DNA of 30,986 bases, taken from the IMG/VR virus record IMGVR_UViG_3300046520_000060, positions 1-30,986 of that record. The stretch is one strand, 5' to 3'. Positions within the stretch are counted from its first letter, which is position 1. Each line of letters starts with the position of its first letter. A program made the translations under genes and the position numbers. The notes under the pieces were generated by a model. The model saw only the letters and a list, made by a program, of their open reading frames with translations, made no database searches and was not told where the DNA came from. The stretch is from a virus. Shown one piece after another: positions 9,793 through 17,140 of this stretch.

Positions 9793-11229
9793 TTAGCCGT
9801 TGCTCGCGATCGCCCGCGAGAACTCCTCGATGAAGTCCACGTAGTACTGCGGGTTGCGGCGAGCGCGGAACTGCAGGTGCTCCAGGAGCGCCGGGGGTTC
9901 GAGGTCGAAGTCGACCGACAGCTCACCCGCGGAGAAGGTCGCCGGGGTGTTGATGTTCGGGTCGATCCAACACTTGCCGCCGATCAGCGCGCCGCGGGAG
10001 CGGAGCAGACGGAGGTAGGAGTTGACGTCTCCCTGGATGTCGGCGAGCAGCTGGTAGCTGAACGGCTTGTCCATTCGGCTGCGCTCGGCGCGCTCCAGGC
10101 TCTCGTACACCATGTCCGCGGTGCGGCGAACCGAGAGGTGCGCCCAGAGCGGGTCGGTGCCGGTGCCGCGCACACCCCAGAAGCGGAAACCATCATCGTG
10201 GATGATGGTCGTCACCTGGGAGGCGTTGAGCATGTTCGCTTCGCAGTCGCGGTCGTTCGGCATGAAGTCGACCGGACGGGCGGGGCCGCCGATGTTCTGG
10301 ATCAGCTCGTTCGAGAACGAGTACCAGAAGCCCTTCTCCTCATCGACGCGCGCCTGGATGCCCGCCGCGTAGGCGGAGGCCGGCTTGTTCACGTAGACGG
10401 AGTTCTCGGTGTCCCAGCTCAGAACGCCGGGGTCGACGATCGAGATGCGCTGGCTGCCGTAGTCGCCGCGGTACTCGACCGCGTCTTCGTACGAGGTGCC
10501 GGGGCCGTCGAGGAAGGCGACCGCGCGGAGGCGATCGACGATCGAGGCGAACGACACGCCGACCGGATTGGCGACGTGGCCGAGGGTGACGGTGGCCGCA
10601 GCGCCCGTGCCCGCGCCCGTGATGGTCACGGTCGGGACTGCGTCGTAGCCGTAGCCGGGGTCGGTGATGATGAGCGCGCTCACCTTGCCGCCGATGACGG
10701 AGGCAACTGCCGTGGCCTGGCGTCCGCCGGTCGCGGGAGCGGAGATCGCGACGTTGGTCGTGGCCTGCACGTAGCCGGTGCCCTGGCTGCCGAGAACGAG
10801 GTTCTTGACGCCGTTGGTCGGGCGACCTCCGGTCAGACCGGGGGCGATGAGCAGCTTCGGAACGACGCGGAGCATCGGACGCGCCTTGAGCAGCGACCAG
10901 ACGCCGGTCTTGCCGGACGGCGAGCCGACCGCAGCCGACCAGCTCTCTTCCTGGCTCTCGCCCTCGGCGACACGAACCACGACGATGACAGCCGACTTCT
11001 GGCTGTAGATGGCGTCGACCGCGTCGAGCAGCGTACCGGTGGACTTGAGCTGACCCGCCTTCAGTGCGTCGGCGAAGACCGGCACCGGAGTGTTGAGCGG
11101 GAAGAGATCGGGGTCAGCGTCCGGCGCCGTGCCGACGAGGCCGATCACGTTGGACTTGACGGTCTCAACCGGGCCGGACGGGCTGTCCAGTTCGATCGTT
11201 TCGAGACCGTGGAGGTATTGAACAGTCAT
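9793..11229 (-). CDS. FI: Contractile tail sheath protein, P2 FI-like
   Basis: The 478-residue protein forms the contractile sheath. It begins MTVQYLHGLETIELDSPSGP, then VKSNVIGLVGTAP, the standard sheath N-terminus, and ends with the family pattern RRTADMVYESLERAERSRMD, LLADIQGDVNSYLRLLRSRG and YYVDFIEEFSRAI. Between, a Gly/Ala/Val-rich segment (VAISAPATGGRQATAVASVI, about residues 140-210) looks like an inserted beta domain that would sit on the outer sheath surface. I use ATG 11229 because GGGAG lies five bases upstream; a TTG at 11241 is in frame but overlaps that site. The gene follows a strong terminator and precedes the tube gene. Confidence 0.93.
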   Translation of the reverse strand: MTVQYLHGLETIELDSPSGPVETVKSNVIGLVGTAPDADPDLFPLNTPVPVFADALKAGQLKSTGTLLDAVDAIYSQKSAVIVVVRVAEGESQEESWSAAVGSPSGKTGVWSLLKARPMLRVVPKLLIAPGLTGGRPTNGVKNLVLGSQGTGYVQATTNVAISAPATGGRQATAVASVIGGKVSALIITDPGYGYDAVPTVTITGAGTGAAATVTLGHVANPVGVSFASIVDRLRAVAFLDGPGTSYEDAVEYRGDYGSQRISIVDPGVLSWDTENSVYVNKPASAYAAGIQARVDEEKGFWYSFSNELIQNIGGPARPVDFMPNDRDCEANMLNASQVTTIIHDDGFRFWGVRGTGTDPLWAHLSVRRTADMVYESLERAERSRMDKPFSYQLLADIQGDVNSYLRLLRSRGALIGGKCWIDPNINTPATFSAGELSVDFDLEPPALLEHLQFRARRNPQYYVDFIEEFSRAIASNG

Positions 11230-11244
11230 GGGTTCTCCCAAACG

Positions 11245-11270
11245 AAAAAAGCCGCCCGGGAGGGGCGGCT
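11245..11270 (-). terminator. Intrinsic terminator at the end of the modification cassette, before the sheath gene
   Basis: Minus strand: AGCCGCCC and GGGCGGCT pair over 8 bp around GGGAG-type loop bases, then TTTTTTCG. It separates the enzyme cluster from the highly expressed sheath/tube genes. Confidence 0.88.
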
Positions 11271-11292: not shown

Positions 11293-11715
11293 TTACGGTC
11301 GAAGGATCAGCGGATAGTGGGTCCACTTCTCCTGGCCGGGGATATTGGTGACCCCCTGCTCGACGGTGATGGTGCCTGAGACCAGGCGGTAGATGCCATC
11401 GCCAGCAACGAGGACGATGTCATACGAATAGGACCCGGGCGGGATCTGGGCGGCGTCCGCTTGCTTCAACCTGAGGCCAAATTTGCCGGCTTGCCGATCG
11501 ACGACCGCGAGGCGACCGTTATCGGTGGAGCACGTTACAGAGAGGTCGCCGGTCGATTTCTTCTGGAGCTGCATGTACAGCTTCCAGCTTTGGTCGAGGG
11601 GGATGGTCTCGCCGTCGTTGATCAGCTGCCAGTCGCGAACCCAATCTTCGTTCGTGGCAGCGTGAAAGTCATCCATGAGCACCTGAGGAGGGCTCGCGGA
11701 GAGAATGGTTTGCAT
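11293..11715 (-). CDS. Baseplate-associated beta-sandwich protein, BppU-N-like
   Basis: The 140-residue product has the look of the small all-beta domains that open phage baseplate upper proteins: NEDWVRDWQLINDGETIPL, DQSWKLYMQLQKK, LRLKQADAAQIPPGSYSYDI and RLVSGTITVEQGVT. The assignment is from this pattern of strands and not from a strict motif. It is probably a virion protein near the baseplate. The ATG at 11715 is two bases from the upstream stop; an internal ATG at 11676 has a better ribosome site (AGGTG), so the true protein may lack the first 13 residues. It is the last gene before the terminator at 11245-11270, so it belongs to the same unit as the modifying enzymes. Confidence 0.65.
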   Translation of the reverse strand: MQTILSASPPQVLMDDFHAATNEDWVRDWQLINDGETIPLDQSWKLYMQLQKKSTGDLSVTCSTDNGRLAVVDRQAGKFGLRLKQADAAQIPPGSYSYDIVLVAGDGIYRLVSGTITVEQGVTNIPGQEKWTHYPLILRP

Positions 11716-11717
11716 GG

Positions 11718-12449
11718 TCAGAGCCCTGTCAGGAGTGGCCCCTCGTAGCTCTCGACCGCCTTCGACACGATGTCGAACGTCTTCCTCATCCTGATGTCGA
11801 GCGTCAGCATGATGGCGTAGCGGTCTTCGGTCTCGGAGCGGTTGAAGACGTTGTGGTAGTGGGCACCGTTGAACGCCCAGGCCTGCGCCTGCGGGTAGTT
11901 CTTGCGGTGGATCTCCAGCTTACCGGCCGAGTAGTCCGCCAGCTCATAGACCTGAGTGTCGATGACCTCGTAGCTGAAGTCCAGATTGGTGCGGATAGGG
12001 ACGTGGACGATCAGCTCGTACCAGTTCGGCCGCCGGCCGCCGGCACCCATGATCATCGAAAGCTCTGATCCGTGGCGGTGCCAGGTCAGACTGCCGCCTG
12101 CCTTGACGCACATGAGCCGGGCGCGCTGCCCCTCGCCACCAAGCTCGGTCACGACCTGCTTGATGTACGGGCTGCTGTCGGCGACCGGCGTCCACACGTA
12201 GCCTGTGCGGCCTTCGTATGGAACCTCGGTCAGGTCGTCATGGATGGACCCGTTCTGTGCGACAAGCGAAAGCCCCCGCCAGAACTTGGCGATGTGGTCG
12301 GCGTTTCGGCTTTTGGAACGGAAGGGCACGAAAAGTGCCGGATCGATGGCATCAAGTTCGACTTGCAAACGTTGCGCATCGTATGCCTTTTCCAACCACA
12401 AATGGGGGATTTTGTCAAGGGATCGAGCCAGTTCAGCGAACTTCGACAT
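11718..12449 (-). CDS. Aspartyl/asparaginyl beta-hydroxylase-like Fe(II)/2-oxoglutarate dioxygenase
   Basis: The 243-residue protein has the features of the Asp/Asn beta-hydroxylase family (PF05118), a jelly-roll dioxygenase that needs two iron-binding histidines. Visible are LTWHRHGSEL (His124, His126), YELIVHVPIRTN (His149), and the C-terminal signature AWAFNGAHYHNVFNRSE, with His197/His199, then Arg210 in EDRYAIMLTLDI, a likely 2-oxoglutarate contact. Members hydroxylate Asp or Asn in proteins. It overlaps the radical SAM gene by 17 bp, so the two are probably translated together. The substrate is unknown; a tail or fibre protein is my inference from the context. The first ~80 residues have no recognised fold. 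Confidence 0.78.
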   Translation of the reverse strand: MSKFAELARSLDKIPHLWLEKAYDAQRLQVELDAIDPALFVPFRSKSRNADHIAKFWRGLSLVAQNGSIHDDLTEVPYEGRTGYVWTPVADSSPYIKQVVTELGGEGQRARLMCVKAGGSLTWHRHGSELSMIMGAGGRRPNWYELIVHVPIRTNLDFSYEVIDTQVYELADYSAGKLEIHRKNYPQAQAWAFNGAHYHNVFNRSETEDRYAIMLTLDIRMRKTFDIVSKAVESYEGPLLTGL

Positions 12450-13731
12450 CGCGATCCTTCTTCAGTTTCGGACGCACAATGTCGCCGCTGAAGCCGACCA
12501 TCCACCGGCCCGTCAGGACGAACAGTGCCGCCCTGAAGAAGGCCAGGTTGTAGAAGAACTCCGCGTTGCAGCTGTGCGTCCAGTTGTCTCCGCCCTGGTA
12601 CATGCAGGCGCCCTGGCAAAGCTGCAGCACGGGGCAGCTCTGGCACTCTGGGCGCTTGCTCCAGTGCTTGGAGGTGTTGAGTGCGATATTGTCGAAGTCG
12701 TCGACGTGCCCGATCTTGTGGTTGCCGTTGGCGCCCACGTTCTGGCAGGTCATGACGTTGCCCTTCAGGTCGACCGCCAGATACTCCGGCATGTCCATGC
12801 CGCACTTCTGGAACAGGTTCTCCGAGGTGTGCTGGTTCACGATCGACTTCACGGCCCGCTGGAGCTTCTGCATCAGCATCGGCGAGCGCAGCGCGCTTCC
12901 GTCTGCCAGCTGGCGCGAGAGCGTGTCGCTGAAGGCGGCCAACTGCTCGATCGAGAAGATCGAGGACGGGTCGCTCGCATAGCTGTGGACCACACCCTCG
13001 AAGCCGACGTTGCAGCCCGGGAAATAGTCCTGAAACCAGTCGATGACCTCGTTGACGTTGTGGCTCTTGGGCGTCAGCACCGCGTTGAACGAGAAGCGCG
13101 GATGAAAGGTCTGCTGCGCGTACTGGATCATCGCGAACTTGGCGGGATCCTCGAACGGGTCCTCGCCGCGGATCGAATGCCCGGGGCCGTCATGGCTCAT
13201 GGTGACCGAGAAGTCCCAGGCCTTGAGCTGATCGATGATCTCGCGGGTGAAGAGCGAGCCGTTCGTGATGATCGAGAACCGGGCGTTCGGGAACTTCTCC
13301 TTCAGCGCCGGCACGAGGATCTCGATCTTCTTCCAGTAGAGCAGCGGCTCGCCGCCCCACAGCTCAACCTTCTGCATCCCTTCCGGGCTGGCGATCCAGT
13401 TGTCGATGTTGGCGATGAACTCGCTGGCGTCCCGGGTGCTCGATGCCGCGGCCATCTGCACTTGGAGGGCCTGGAGGCAATAGGAGCACGAATAGTTGCA
13501 GCCGAGGCCGAGCTGAATCTTCAGCTTGGTGATCTCCCGGACCTTGCGGCCGGGCTGATCGTAGTCCACGGCGATGAAGGGGCGGGCCTGGCCCGGAGTC
13601 GGATCGTAGAACGGGTTGCTGGTGAGGTCGACGGCCTGGAAGCCGTCCTGGCCGAGCAAGCGTGAGGTGTGCTGATCGTAGAACAGAGGCACGACCTCTC
13701 CGTCCTTACCCAGCATTTCCAGTCTGATCAT
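12433..13731 (-). CDS. Radical SAM/SPASM peptide-modifying enzyme
   Basis: The 432-residue protein carries the radical SAM motif LGCNYSCSYC (Cys78, Cys82, Cys85, CxxxCxxC), which binds the 4Fe-4S cluster that cleaves S-adenosylmethionine, and WGGEPL (126-129) for SAM binding. The C-terminal part has a full SPASM cysteine set: Cys310, Cys329 in GNVMTC, then Cys363, 366, 372, 376 (CQSCPVLQLCQGAC) and Cys388, which would hold two auxiliary clusters. This layout is that of anaerobic sulfatase-maturase and RiPP maturases, which act on ribosomal peptides or proteins. An N-terminal ~70 residues could be a peptide-recognition part. It overlaps the GNAT gene (26 bp) and the hydroxylase gene (17 bp). 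Its presence among tail genes is unusual; target inferred, not shown. Confidence 0.9.
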   Translation of the reverse strand: MIRLEMLGKDGEVVPLFYDQHTSRLLGQDGFQAVDLTSNPFYDPTPGQARPFIAVDYDQPGRKVREITKLKIQLGLGCNYSCSYCLQALQVQMAAASSTRDASEFIANIDNWIASPEGMQKVELWGGEPLLYWKKIEILVPALKEKFPNARFSIITNGSLFTREIIDQLKAWDFSVTMSHDGPGHSIRGEDPFEDPAKFAMIQYAQQTFHPRFSFNAVLTPKSHNVNEVIDWFQDYFPGCNVGFEGVVHSYASDPSSIFSIEQLAAFSDTLSRQLADGSALRSPMLMQKLQRAVKSIVNQHTSENLFQKCGMDMPEYLAVDLKGNVMTCQNVGANGNHKIGHVDDFDNIALNTSKHWSKRPECQSCPVLQLCQGACMYQGGDNWTHSCNAEFFYNLAFFRAALFVLTGRWMVGFSGDIVRPKLKKDRDVEVR

Positions 13732-14335
13732 TTTCGCTTTCGAGATAGGCTGCCAGCGGCAGCGGGTCCTTGAACCGGTAGATCATCGAGTCGTCTCCCA
13801 CACAGACCCACGAGACCCTTCGGTATTCGATTGGCGCTCCCTGACCTGCCGGAATGAAGCACATTCGCTCCGGGTGGTAGCTGTTCAGCAGGCAGTTCGG
13901 GTGGCTGAACGGATGCCGGTCCTCCCTGCCCGCGTAAACACGGGACCAGAAGCACTCGACTCCCTCAGACCAGAAGTGACCGACGCCCCAGTTCACGACG
14001 TCAATGAGCGCGTCAGACCAGACGCATCCGCTCCCGCGCGGAAGGTTGGCGTCCGGGTCTTCTATGAAAGTGGCGACGGTGATGTTGGTGTTGTCGACCC
14101 ATCGGTAAAAGCCGGCCCATGCGACGAGCTGGTCGCTGTGGTCGAAGTAGCCGAAGTAATGAGCCATCGCCTGGGGGAACAGCTGGTCGATGTGGTCCTT
14201 GGCGAAGCGCCTGAAGTCCGATCGCACCGGAGCGCTTGGATCGTTGCACCACGCTCCTACGCCGCTGCTGTGCTTCTCGATGATGGCATGCATCTCGTCC
14301 AGATCGGCAGGCGTTAGATGTCGGATCTTCGGCAT
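13706..14335 (-). CDS. GNAT-like acetyltransferase
   Basis: The 209-residue protein starts MPKIRHLTPADLDEMHAII, the usual first strand and helix of GNAT N-acetyltransferases, and has a central strand pair YFGYFDHSDQLVAWAGFYRW and later SDALIDVVNWGVGHFW, where the acetyl-CoA helix would lie. A canonical R/Q-x-x-G-x-G/A loop is not clear, so catalysis is uncertain. AAGGGAG lies just before the ATG, a strong ribosome site. The gene overlaps the radical SAM gene by 26 bp. Members often acetylate amines on proteins or small molecules; here a role in modifying a tail protein is suggested by context only. Confidence 0.62.
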   Translation of the reverse strand: MPKIRHLTPADLDEMHAIIEKHSSGVGAWCNDPSAPVRSDFRRFAKDHIDQLFPQAMAHYFGYFDHSDQLVAWAGFYRWVDNTNITVATFIEDPDANLPRGSGCVWSDALIDVVNWGVGHFWSEGVECFWSRVYAGREDRHPFSHPNCLLNSYHPERMCFIPAGQGAPIEYRRVSWVCVGDDSMIYRFKDPLPLAAYLESENDQTGNAG

Positions 14336-14345
14336 GGTGCTCCCT

Positions 14346-14891
14346 TCAGCGCCAGAGCTTGGCGCCCATCACCGGCTCGGTGATCTTGGCCGTATGCGGA
14401 TTGGTGATCTCCAGCATCGTGGGGCCGACGAAGGTCTGGTGAGCCAGCTCGATCTTGCCCTCTGCGATGTAGAGGAAACTGTTTGGCTCCACCTCGAACG
14501 TGTCGCCGGCTTTGCCGCCAACGAATGAGCGCTGCCAGAAGACCGGCTCCTTACTCTTCGGGGTGATGCAGTGATACTCGCTGTCCGGCGCGGTGGCGCG
14601 GAGCTTGTAATTGTCGATGCCTCGCACGATCTGCGTGGCGCCGCTTCCAGCTGGACGAGGGTCTGGCGCGTGGTCGCCGCCGAGAGCCTCGAAGCCGCCC
14701 TTGGTGTAGACGGGGATGGTGTGGAGCGGCCTGGCGTCGTCCTTGCCTTCCAGCAAGTGGGCGATAGCCGGCGCGTCCGCCGCAGTCATGCCGCGGGTCA
14801 GTTCAGACGGGGGACAAACCCTCTCCTCGCCGGCATGCGCCGTGAAGATCGTGATCGTGAAATTCTCGAAGCGGATGCGCCTGAACTGCAT
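14346..14891 (-). CDS. Cupin-like protein
   Basis: The 181-residue product has a C-terminal all-beta part that reads EPVFWQRSFVGGKAGDTFEV and then PNSFLYIAEGKIELAH, resembling the second half of a cupin barrel. Possible metal ligands are His107 (EYHCITPK) and His151, but the usual cupin 1 motif is not complete, so it may be non-catalytic. The N-terminal part opens MQFRRIRFENFTITIFTAHA. I use ATG 14891 because AAGG lies seven bases upstream; a GTG at 14897 would overlap the previous stop. It sits between the small unknown gene and the GNAT gene. It could be a dioxygenase, a binding protein or a structural part. Confidence 0.55.
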   Translation of the reverse strand: MQFRRIRFENFTITIFTAHAGEERVCPPSELTRGMTAADAPAIAHLLEGKDDARPLHTIPVYTKGGFEALGGDHAPDPRPAGSGATQIVRGIDNYKLRATAPDSEYHCITPKSKEPVFWQRSFVGGKAGDTFEVEPNSFLYIAEGKIELAHQTFVGPTMLEITNPHTAKITEPVMGAKLWR

Positions 14892-14893
14892 CG

Positions 14894-15214
14894 TCACACC
14901 TTGTGGGTTTCCATGGGCAGACCGACCGGATCTTCCATGGGACGATCGATGCGGTGCGTGAATTGTCCTTCCAAGGCGGCGGGGGCCGGTGAGGCCTCCC
15001 GCGCCAGAGTGTCGAGGTACCTGGCGTGGAAGGATTGCCAGGGGAACTGCATGACGATTGCGCCACGCTGCTCCTCTTCAGAATGGTTCAGAGGAATGAA
15101 GACGCGCTTGACCAAGCTGCCGAGCGTCTCGTGTCGATATTCGACCTGAGCCCAGCCATCCTTGCTCCAGATGTTGATCTTGTAGCTGAAGGTGGTGCTC
15201 AGCGGCGTGGTCAT
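14894..15214 (-). CDS. Small protein of unknown function in the modification cassette
   Basis: I do not recognise this 106-residue protein. It opens MTTPLSTTFSYKINIWSKDG and has a beta-rich first half, then WQSFHARYLDTLAREASPAP and a charged, proline-containing tail ending PMETHKV. It has no cysteine. GAGG lies four bases before the ATG. It is located between the cysteine-tailed protein and the cupin-like gene, six bases from the former's stop, so it is cotranscribed with both. It could be a leader-binding or carrier partner for the enzymes, or a small virion protein. Confidence 0.6.
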   Translation of the reverse strand: MTTPLSTTFSYKINIWSKDGWAQVEYRHETLGSLVKRVFIPLNHSEEEQRGAIVMQFPWQSFHARYLDTLAREASPAPAALEGQFTHRIDRPMEDPVGLPMETHKV

Positions 15215-15220
15215 TGATCC

Positions 15221-15457
15221 TCACTTACTGCACGCACACGCGCAGTCGCACGCGCAGGCACAGTTCCATTCGTCGTGGTTCGATTTCCCGTAGAACATGG
15301 ACATGGGGAAGTTCGAGCCAGGGAATGTCCCTGTGCCCGTTGGTCCGCCATTCAGGAAATAATAGGTTCGGCCGACGTAGCTGCTCATCGCAATGCCGTA
15401 GCCGAAGACGGAGTTGACGGTCGAAAAGGCGACCGCTCCTGATCCAGGAACGGCCAT
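15221..15457 (-). CDS. Fibre-tip-like protein with alternating-cysteine C-terminus, candidate modified peptide
   Basis: The 78-residue product has two parts. Residues 1-59 resemble the short repeats found in many phage tail-tip proteins: GSGAVAFSTVNSVFGYG, then SSYVGRTYYF and NFPMSMFYGKS. Residues 60-78 are NHDEWNCACACDCACACSK, with cysteines at 66, 68, 70, 72, 74 and 76 alternating with Ala or Asp. Such a run is not expected in an ordinary fold; it suggests thioether or disulfide cross-links, metal binding or post-translational modification. The gene starts three bases after the fibre stop and is followed by a cluster of modifying enzymes including radical SAM/SPASM. I propose that the tail is their substrate; this is inference. 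Bases in the tail are a repeat of Cys and Ala codons, so slippage could vary its length. Confidence 0.8.
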   Translation of the reverse strand: MAVPGSGAVAFSTVNSVFGYGIAMSSYVGRTYYFLNGGPTGTGTFPGSNFPMSMFYGKSNHDEWNCACACDCACACSK

Positions 15458-15460
15458 CTC

Positions 15461-17140
15461 TTAGATCCCCAACTTTGCTTCGATCGCCGCGAGGCGCGCT
15501 TCGAGTGCATCGCTCCTGTCAGCCAACTCCTTCACAGCCTCGACCAGGAGGCCGGAGAGCTGCTCGTAGTAGATGTTCAGGAGATCGAGGCCCGACTTGC
15601 TCTTGCCGAACTTGTCGGTGTCGAACGGCGCGAGACCAACGGCTTCCGGCAGAACCCTCTGCAGATCCTGCGCCAGCAGACCGGCCTTGCGACGCGGTTG
15701 CTCGGGAGCTTTCAGTTCCTTGGCCAGATCACTCTGATCCCAGGTGACGCCACGCAACTGCCGGATCTTCTCCAGCGCGTTGGTGATGATCTCGATGTCC
15801 TTCTTCAGCCGCACGTCTGAGACGCCGTAGACGATGTCGCCAGCGGCTCGAACCTGGTTTGCGACCGGGGTCGTGGCTGCGCCGTAGCCGTTGCTGTAAA
15901 GCAGACCAGCCGCCGTACACTGCATTCGCACAGCCGCGCCATCCGACCAACCGCCCCACTTGAAGGTGTTGTCGGTGTCGAGACCCATGTGCATCGCGTA
16001 CGCAGTCCGATGGAACGTGATGAACGCCGATCCACTGTCTGTGGCGTAGACGTTCACGAATCCAAAGGTCGCGCGGTTGATGAAGCTGGCGCCGATGTTG
16101 CTGGTCCAGGTGTGAGCACCAGTCCAGGTCGGAGCAATCGCAGCATCGATCGCGGGGGCCGCGTCCGATCGCATGTAGGTGACGGCAGAGCCGTTCTGCA
16201 CCACCATGGTCGACTTGCTGGTCGGGTTCGCGAAGGTGACGCCGAGGTTGATGCGAGCCTGCGCCTTGTCGGTCAGGTCGCTCAGGTTGTTCGAAGCACC
16301 CAGCTTTCCAGAGACCGTGGTGGACAGCGCGGTGAACCCGCTTTCGTCCGCCGCCATCTGGGCAGCGAGTTCCTGGAACGTATCCAGACTCGACGGCGCG
16401 GTGCCGATCAGAGCTTGGATCTTTCCGTCCACATACGACTTGAGGGCGTAGTTGGTCGGATCCCAGGTGCCGGCGAGCGCAGCCGAAGCCGCGGCAGCAG
16501 AAGCCGAGGTAGAGGCGGCATTGCGATCCGCGCCTGTCTGGACTCGGTCGAGACCAGTCTGAACGCGATCGGCAGCGGTGGCCACCTTCGAAGCGTTGAC
16601 TTGGGTACGAGCCGTGTCGATCTGGCCGAAGTAGGCCATGGCAGCGATGGTGCTCGCCGCACAAGCGCCGATCTGCCAGTCCGTGTGTGGACCGGGGTTG
16701 CCGGTGATCGACTTGACCTGCACCATCAGCGTGCCGGTGGCTGCCTCGTACGAGATCAACTGAGCGATTGCAAAATCATCGACCGTCGAGGAGCGCGTCA
16801 GCGCCAGGAATGGAGTCGGCGTGAACAACGACTTCTGCGTCTCATCGTCGATGACGAAGGTCGCAGTCATGTCGTTGGTGAGAGTGACCTCGCTGGACGA
16901 GCCAGCGAAGAGGAAGCCGAGCGTGGACAACAGCTGGATGCGGTTGTACGCCGGCAGGATGGCGTCGTTCAGACGAGAGAGGCCGACGTCACGCAGGTCG
17001 TTGACCGCCTGCTGCCAGGACGGCGTGAACGGTTCGAGGGAACGCAGGCGCTGATCCAGCACCTGCATCGCCGCGTTCAAACGATCTGCCGTGAAGTCTT
17101 CATCCTCGCTGAATACAAGCTCAGGAAAGTTGCTTGACAT
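15461..17140 (-). CDS. Tail fibre protein with C-terminal S74 intramolecular chaperone
   Basis: The 559-residue protein is a tail fibre. Residues ~1-170 form a basal part that would attach to the baseplate. Then come an alanine-rich coiled segment (~180-225), a fibre repeat of the type YALKSYVDGKIQALIG with TFQELAAQMAADESGFTALS and NNLSDLTDKAQARINLG, and a beta-rich receptor region (330-430). The C-terminus is an S74 chaperone domain, opening VSDVRLKKDIEIITNALEKI with Ser441 at the expected autocleavage site, and ending in a coiled coil. S74 domains trimerise the fibre and then cut themselves off. The start overlaps the preceding gene by 20 bp. The receptor is unknown. Confidence 0.9.
   Translation of the reverse strand: MSSNFPELVFSEDEDFTADRLNAAMQVLDQRLRSLEPFTPSWQQAVNDLRDVGLSRLNDAILPAYNRIQLLSTLGFLFAGSSSEVTLTNDMTATFVIDDETQKSLFTPTPFLALTRSSTVDDFAIAQLISYEAATGTLMVQVKSITGNPGPHTDWQIGACAASTIAAMAYFGQIDTARTQVNASKVATAADRVQTGLDRVQTGADRNAASTSASAAAASAALAGTWDPTNYALKSYVDGKIQALIGTAPSSLDTFQELAAQMAADESGFTALSTTVSGKLGASNNLSDLTDKAQARINLGVTFANPTSKSTMVVQNGSAVTYMRSDAAPAIDAAIAPTWTGAHTWTSNIGASFINRATFGFVNVYATDSGSAFITFHRTAYAMHMGLDTDNTFKWGGWSDGAAVRMQCTAAGLLYSNGYGAATTPVANQVRAAGDIVYGVSDVRLKKDIEIITNALEKIRQLRGVTWDQSDLAKELKAPEQPRRKAGLLAQDLQRVLPEAVGLAPFDTDKFGKSKSGLDLLNIYYEQLSGLLVEAVKELADRSDALEARLAAIEAKLGI

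Follow-up and report, generated by a model that had tools for sequence, protein, structure and literature searches.

In the IMG/VR virus record IMGVR_UViG_3300046520_000060 (30,986 nucleotides (nt), analyzed over its whole length and hereafter called the window), seven tightly packed minus-strand genes, running from position 15457 down to 11293, are flanked by an S74 tail-fiber gene and a tail-sheath gene. Two of them encode a 78-amino-acid (aa) protein that ends in a tract of alternating cysteines (Cys) and a 432-aa radical S-adenosylmethionine (SAM)/SPASM enzyme. We propose, with a probability of about 70%, that this cassette is a virion-maturation module, in which the SPASM enzyme modifies the alternating-Cys tract at the tail tip, probably by thioether formation. 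The source of the window is a contractile-tailed phage, as judged from its recognized sheath, baseplate and other tail genes.

Association of the SPASM enzyme with alternating-Cys tracts

For the enzyme side, IMG/VR was surveyed with a family alignment (A1), since phrog_1802 is too general as a genome query (matches in 13 of 14 control genomes). At least 251 stretches were confirmed and 79 distinct loci were kept. A tract, counted from four alternating Cys upwards, is present on the same strand in 62 of these 79 loci, versus three on the opposite strand. Among the 44 loci with enough flank (4 kb or more upstream of the SPASM gene and 1.6 kb or more downstream), 40 carry a same-strand tract; the remaining four show an NCNCNC end (locus L031) or a shorter or diverged Cys/Asn-rich open reading frame (ORF).

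For the tract side, the pattern NCNCNCxC matched at least 120 stretches. A same-strand SPASM enzyme stands beside 49 of the 51 C-terminal tracts that, among the matches listed, belong to real ORFs with at least 2.7 kb downstream, and the two others (L192 and L227) show weaker enzyme matches near 57 bits, just below the threshold. The pattern CxCxCFPxGT, composed of the tract and the start of a Hint domain, yielded 16 true tract-Hint loci; the enzyme is encoded in 12 of them, and the others are cut off behind the tract. Opposite-strand counts and this reverse test served as controls; a control collection of S74 fibers gave only two stretches. The preliminary description of this DNA had named a SPASM gene usually lacking a Cys-tailed protein as the observation that would speak against its proposal, and in both directions of the survey the two are almost always found paired.

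The link cannot be explained by common occurrence of the enzyme, because the enzyme is rare in general. Among cultured phages it is present only in the Achromobacter phages JWF and 2-1 (3 records of 50,697), and two of 397 genomes of the order containing the Bradyrhizobium genome encode it. With the JWF fiber as query, JWF and 2-1 were the only cultured phages found with a homologue of comparable full length. A reduced locus of the same order, L244, encodes an S74 fiber, a 92-aa protein ending in SACACGDCA, a 188-aa protein, the SPASM enzyme and, in the sheath's place, a 412-aa protein, with fiber and sheath identities assigned by eye. We do not claim a shared GNAT for L244, because the 209-aa protein of the window and the 188-aa protein are related with an hhalign probability of only 9%.

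Judged from the compared loci, the conserved core of the cassette is the Cys-tract protein together with the SPASM enzyme. Of the exact gene set that had been described for the window, this pair is widespread, whereas the 106-aa, 183-aa and GNAT genes were found in near relatives of the window phage only. The core idea of the preliminary description is thus upheld and applies more widely than it had claimed, the six-gene set being a lineage-specific version of it.

The alternating-Cys tract and its carriers

The putative substrate, the 78-aa protein (15221..15457, minus strand), was delimited as an ORF and followed by family profile search. It ends in NCACACDCACACSK, a tract encoded at 15224..15265 of the same strand, and similar tracts lie near the SPASM gene elsewhere. 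The tract is not a product of chance, since its orthologs keep the alternating pattern although repeat number and codons vary. In family profile searches, the N-terminal part of the protein is common to tract proteins of the lake phages L036-L088. Spacer residues between tract Cys in the enzyme-found loci are Asn (48%), Ala (23%), Lys (15%) and Asp (6%), and Asn precedes the first tract Cys in 47 of 56 cases.

Alternating-Cys tracts are carried by nine gene families, and several carriers match PHROG tail-fiber families. The tract forms the native C-terminus or stands before one of three domains (Hint, the S74 chaperone, or one that starts with SKIIC). S74 domains are self-cleaving, and Hint domains by analogy; should they cleave in the tract carriers, the mature proteins concerned would end with the tract.

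Several further arrangements were observed. L058 (2517-3401) and its relatives in L036-L088 encode tract proteins rich in Asn-Cys dipeptides with a C-terminal SKIIC-starting domain of unknown function. Very long (Lys-Cys)n tracts with 25-27 alternating Cys occur in L033 (113-910), there with an S74 chaperone behind the tract, and in L035 (790-1518); paired oxygenase-like genes and a tryptophan-halogenase relative are located nearby. A separate small protein family (L127-L130, L135, L146, L160 and L176) bears CKNCNCNCHC near its N-terminus with the SPASM enzyme not nearby, and looks like an unrelated Cys motif.

The alternation as such would also suit a metal-binding column in a trimeric fiber, a CxC analogue of the HxH motifs by which T4 gp37 holds iron (PMC11705849), with the SPASM enzyme acting elsewhere or on some residues only. 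Alternating residues of a trimeric beta-structure face inward, and in L028 collagen-like repeats precede the tract. However, a radical SAM enzyme is not required for binding metal, and yet such an enzyme nearly always accompanies the tract, and we consider this explanation unlikely.

The radical SAM/SPASM enzyme and its predicted chemistry

The 432-aa protein (12433..13731, minus strand), putatively peptide-modifying, is on sequence grounds certain to be a radical SAM/SPASM enzyme, as it had been called before. It matches PF04055 (E = 1e-11) and phrog_1802 (E = 7e-58), and it reaches 39.9 bits with the SPASM model TIGR04085 (cut-off 27). Exactly ten Cys are invariant in the family alignment: three of the SAM cluster in the motif CxxxCxxC (C78-C82-C85), which is found in 132 of 132 family members, and seven of the SPASM part (C310, C329, C363, C366, C372, C376 and C388), where the pattern C-x2-C-x5-C-x3-C..C is found in 126 of 132. 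No curated equivalog cut-off is passed by the window enzyme. Its best match is PapB, ranthipeptide maturase NF047865 (82.5 versus 340 bits), and other members of the phage SPASM family likewise stay below this cut-off.

Informative positions lie around auxiliary cluster I (Aux I). In the anaerobic sulfatase-maturating enzyme (anSME) anSMEcpe, Asp277, which follows the second Aux I Cys, acts as base. The phage family has Gln at this place (CQN) in 116 of 132 members; none of the motifs read has Asp there. Aux I of anSME is coordinated by Cys255, Cys261, Cys276 and Cys330, and an open Aux I coordination site has been described for CteB (PMC6231123). Since the counterpart of Cys261 is missing in 113 of 114 members of the phage family, we predict an open Aux I site for these enzymes as well. 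Together, the missing ligand and the Gln in place of Asp277 would speak for an enzyme that binds Cys and forms thioethers, rather than one that generates formylglycine. PapB attaches Cys to the side chain of Asp or Glu and accepts Cys-Xn-Asp with n = 0-6, such that a thioether forms even where Cys and Asp are direct neighbors (PMC9413430); links over such short distances in (N/D-C)n are therefore chemically reasonable.

The same positions bear on the view that the enzyme is an anSME-like dehydrogenase, which would turn tract Cys into formylglycines and leave an aldehyde-studded tip, possibly reacting with host amines. Its JWF homologue is annotated as an anSME, and anSMEcpe is a solved relative (E = 8e-12). 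Formylglycine formation was considered but is disfavored, as neither the Asp277 nor the Cys261 position is conserved and the window tract is without the sulfatase motif C-x-P/A-x-R; this outcome appears distinctly improbable.

A proposed modified tail tip and what weighs against it

We infer that the SPASM enzyme would modify the (x-Cys)n tract at the C-terminal tip of a tail fiber or small tail protein, the tract being the tip natively or once a C-terminal domain is removed. Substrate Cys would bind the open site of the Aux I cluster, and its sulfur would be joined in thioether bonds to carbon atoms of the residues that lie between the Cys (mostly Asn, Ala, Lys and Asp), giving a rigid, non-reducible tip. 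The 2-oxoglutarate hydroxylase and, in the window lineage, the GNAT-fold protein may add further modifications. During infection such a tip probably has a role in host attachment or in tip stability, in the window's phage too if its tract is located there.

As in ribosomally synthesized and post-translationally modified peptides (RiPPs), a ribosomal precursor adjoins its modifying enzyme, which is what the two-way association consists of. The preliminary description had envisaged a modified, RiPP-like tail tip. A modified tail protein is backed by the association, which does not extend to a strict RiPP with leader peptide and cleaved product; the substrate resembles a structural protein of the virion that would undergo modification in situ.

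Several points speak against the proposed modification. We know of no thioether RiPP with an alternating (xC)n layout, and Ala or Lys spacers are atypical as PapB acceptors. The 78-aa protein has no PHROG match. Neither a leader peptide nor a RiPP recognition element was identified, although no dedicated search for leader removal or a free product was made. Finally, an oxygenase family with Pfam support is present in 50 of the 79 loci and any oxygenase-like family in 62, as raw counts; 2-oxoglutarate enzymes are common in phages, and these counts may not show linkage.

The enzyme might also modify another partner, e.g., the approximately 300-aa proteins with immunoglobulin (Ig)-like ends (families F13, F68, F48 and F81) or a secreted small molecule, the tract being linked to it by operon history only. 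In many loci, a recurrent non-enzymatic partner gene indeed directly precedes that of the enzyme. However, no Ig-ended partner was found in the window and lake-phage lineages, which do have the Cys tract, and nine different gene families bear tracts beside the same enzyme; the chance of this explanation is correspondingly small. That the 78-aa protein is the precursor of a free RiPP toxin or signal, cleaved, exported and unrelated to the virion, would suit a small protein with its own gene and several tailoring enzymes, but is highly improbable, given that the same tract ends full-size tail fibers in other loci (PHROG tail matches), that its N-terminal part recurs in larger lake-phage proteins, and that inspection of the cassette showed no gene for a protease or an exporter.

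Modification of the tract at the tail tip can also be framed more broadly, as a new class of virion post-translational modification: in many phage lineages, a dedicated SPASM enzyme and interchangeable oxygenases would produce a cross-linked, chemically new fiber tip that contacts the receptor and is in some cases exposed when a Hint or S74 domain cleaves itself off. For this wider version we see the odds as evenly balanced.

Gene layout and accessory genes

Neighboring genes of the seven-gene run are spaced or overlap by 2-26 nt, and all features of the region lie on the minus strand. Directly upstream of the cassette is the tail fiber with a C-terminal S74 chaperone (15461..17140; PF13884, E = 5e-15; PHROG tail-fiber matches). 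The 78-aa ORF is separated by 6 nt from the 106-aa ORF (14894..15214), which overlaps the 183-aa gene (14346..14897) by 4 nt; a 10-nt gap follows before the 209-aa gene (13706..14335). The latter overlaps the SPASM gene by 26 nt, the SPASM gene overlaps the 243-aa gene (11718..12449) by 17 nt, and 2 nt further on the run ends with a 140-aa small fiber-associated protein (11293..11715; phrog_1084, a family of unknown function, E = 7e-13; weak match to L-shaped tail fiber assembly, 5e-8). After this last gene, an intrinsic terminator with an 8-bp stem and T5 (11250..11270) closes the group, and the tail sheath follows downstream (9793..11241; phrog_23, E = 1e-99).

The gene group had been described as consecutive late-operon genes between fiber and sheath, several overlapping and closed by a terminator, and all genes were found in place. 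The Cys-tailed, unknown, GNAT, SPASM and hydroxylase genes of that list are present. The label "cupin-like" for the 183-aa protein was not recovered, as no cupin match appeared in Pfam or PDB profile searches, and its function, like that of the 106-aa protein (no family match in profile searches), is unknown. Profile searches against PDB sequences gave no matches for the 183-aa, GNAT-fold and hydroxylase proteins. The 209-aa protein agrees with its GNAT-like label at the level of fold: its AlphaFold model (predicted local distance difference test score, pLDDT, 84) points to GNATs in Foldseek (E = 7e-8, probability 1.00, query template-modeling score about 0.5), and its catalysis is a prediction.

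The Asp/Asn hydroxylase-like label of the 243-aa protein is supported through its ortholog. PF05118 scores 13.9 bits (E = 0.05) for the window copy itself, below cut-off, and 25.8 bits against a cut-off of 22.6 (E = 1e-5) for the L009 ortholog; WHRHG and H199 are conserved in the alignment. This homology supports a relative of aspartyl/asparaginyl beta-hydroxylases, the structure model from eight close relatives reaching a pLDDT of only 34. The hydroxylase gene exists in two tandem copies in L007, L008 and L013, of which L008 and L013 also have the Cys-tail gene in two tandem copies. Lake-phage loci encode PF05118 and PF13759 oxygenases (F5, F3), while other distant loci encode related 2-oxoglutarate oxygenases, desaturases (F23, PF00487) or a tryptophan halogenase (L035, PF04820, E = 7e-42). 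Hydroxylase and GNAT are best explained as lineage-specific extras.

Other genes of the cassette region were noted in passing. Fatty-acid-desaturase-like genes are located in L013 (6663-7394; His-box motifs by eye) and L087 (3886-4605; PF00487). A protein of about 270-310 aa with an Ig-like looking C-terminal end (L020, 2004-2939; L029, 5057-5980; L048, 5530-6342; L053, 3887-4696; L024, 6096-6983) recurs just upstream of the SPASM enzyme, has no significant Pfam match in those tested, and is possibly a substrate carrier or chaperone. L029 (5057-11246), from an isolate genome, has three oxygenases in a single locus, along with a pair of SPASM-type genes and Ig-ended partners that occur repeatedly.

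Significance and comparison with known systems

Phage fiber tips decide host range and are regarded as plain protein. Our sequence comparisons suggest that many uncultured phages chemically rebuild the very part of their virions that may come into contact with the host. If true, a widespread enzyme-substrate pair on fiber tips would add a new layer of virion maturation, radical SAM chemistry would gain folded structural proteins as a new class of natural substrates, and the adhesion chemistry, too, might be new. We found no description of such a tail-tip modification in the open-access literature, a scope outside of which lie subscription journals and most preprints. The idea is directly testable in the two cultured Achromobacter phages.

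Among known systems, PapB and the ranthipeptide maturases (NF047865), with the best curated match, share the pairing of a SPASM enzyme with a Cys-rich ribosomal substrate; in contrast to the Cys-X3-Asp precursor peptide of PapB, the phage substrate is an alternating-Cys tail protein, and the score falls far short of the cut-off. The SCIFF maturase CteB (TIGR03974) and other thioether-forming SPASM enzymes likewise act on a Cys substrate with an open Aux I site, which is predicted for the phage family, but the phage enzyme reaches 43.5 versus 425 bits, the substrate layout differs, and there is no SCIFF peptide. The anSMEs (TIGR03942) resemble it in fold and cluster layout and lend their name to the JWF homologue, yet the score is 45.9 versus 349 bits and the two diagnostic positions differ. 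On the structural side, the T4 gp37 tip with its HxH iron column also presents alternating metal-capable residues in a phage fiber tip, whereas the tract has Cys for His and a dedicated radical SAM enzyme alongside. Fibers with an S74 (endosialidase-type) chaperone, finally, share a removable C-terminal domain behind the functional fiber end, which in L033 and L051 lies behind the tract; unlike in these fibers, Hint or SKIIC domains can fill the place of S74, and an alternating-Cys tract stands before them.

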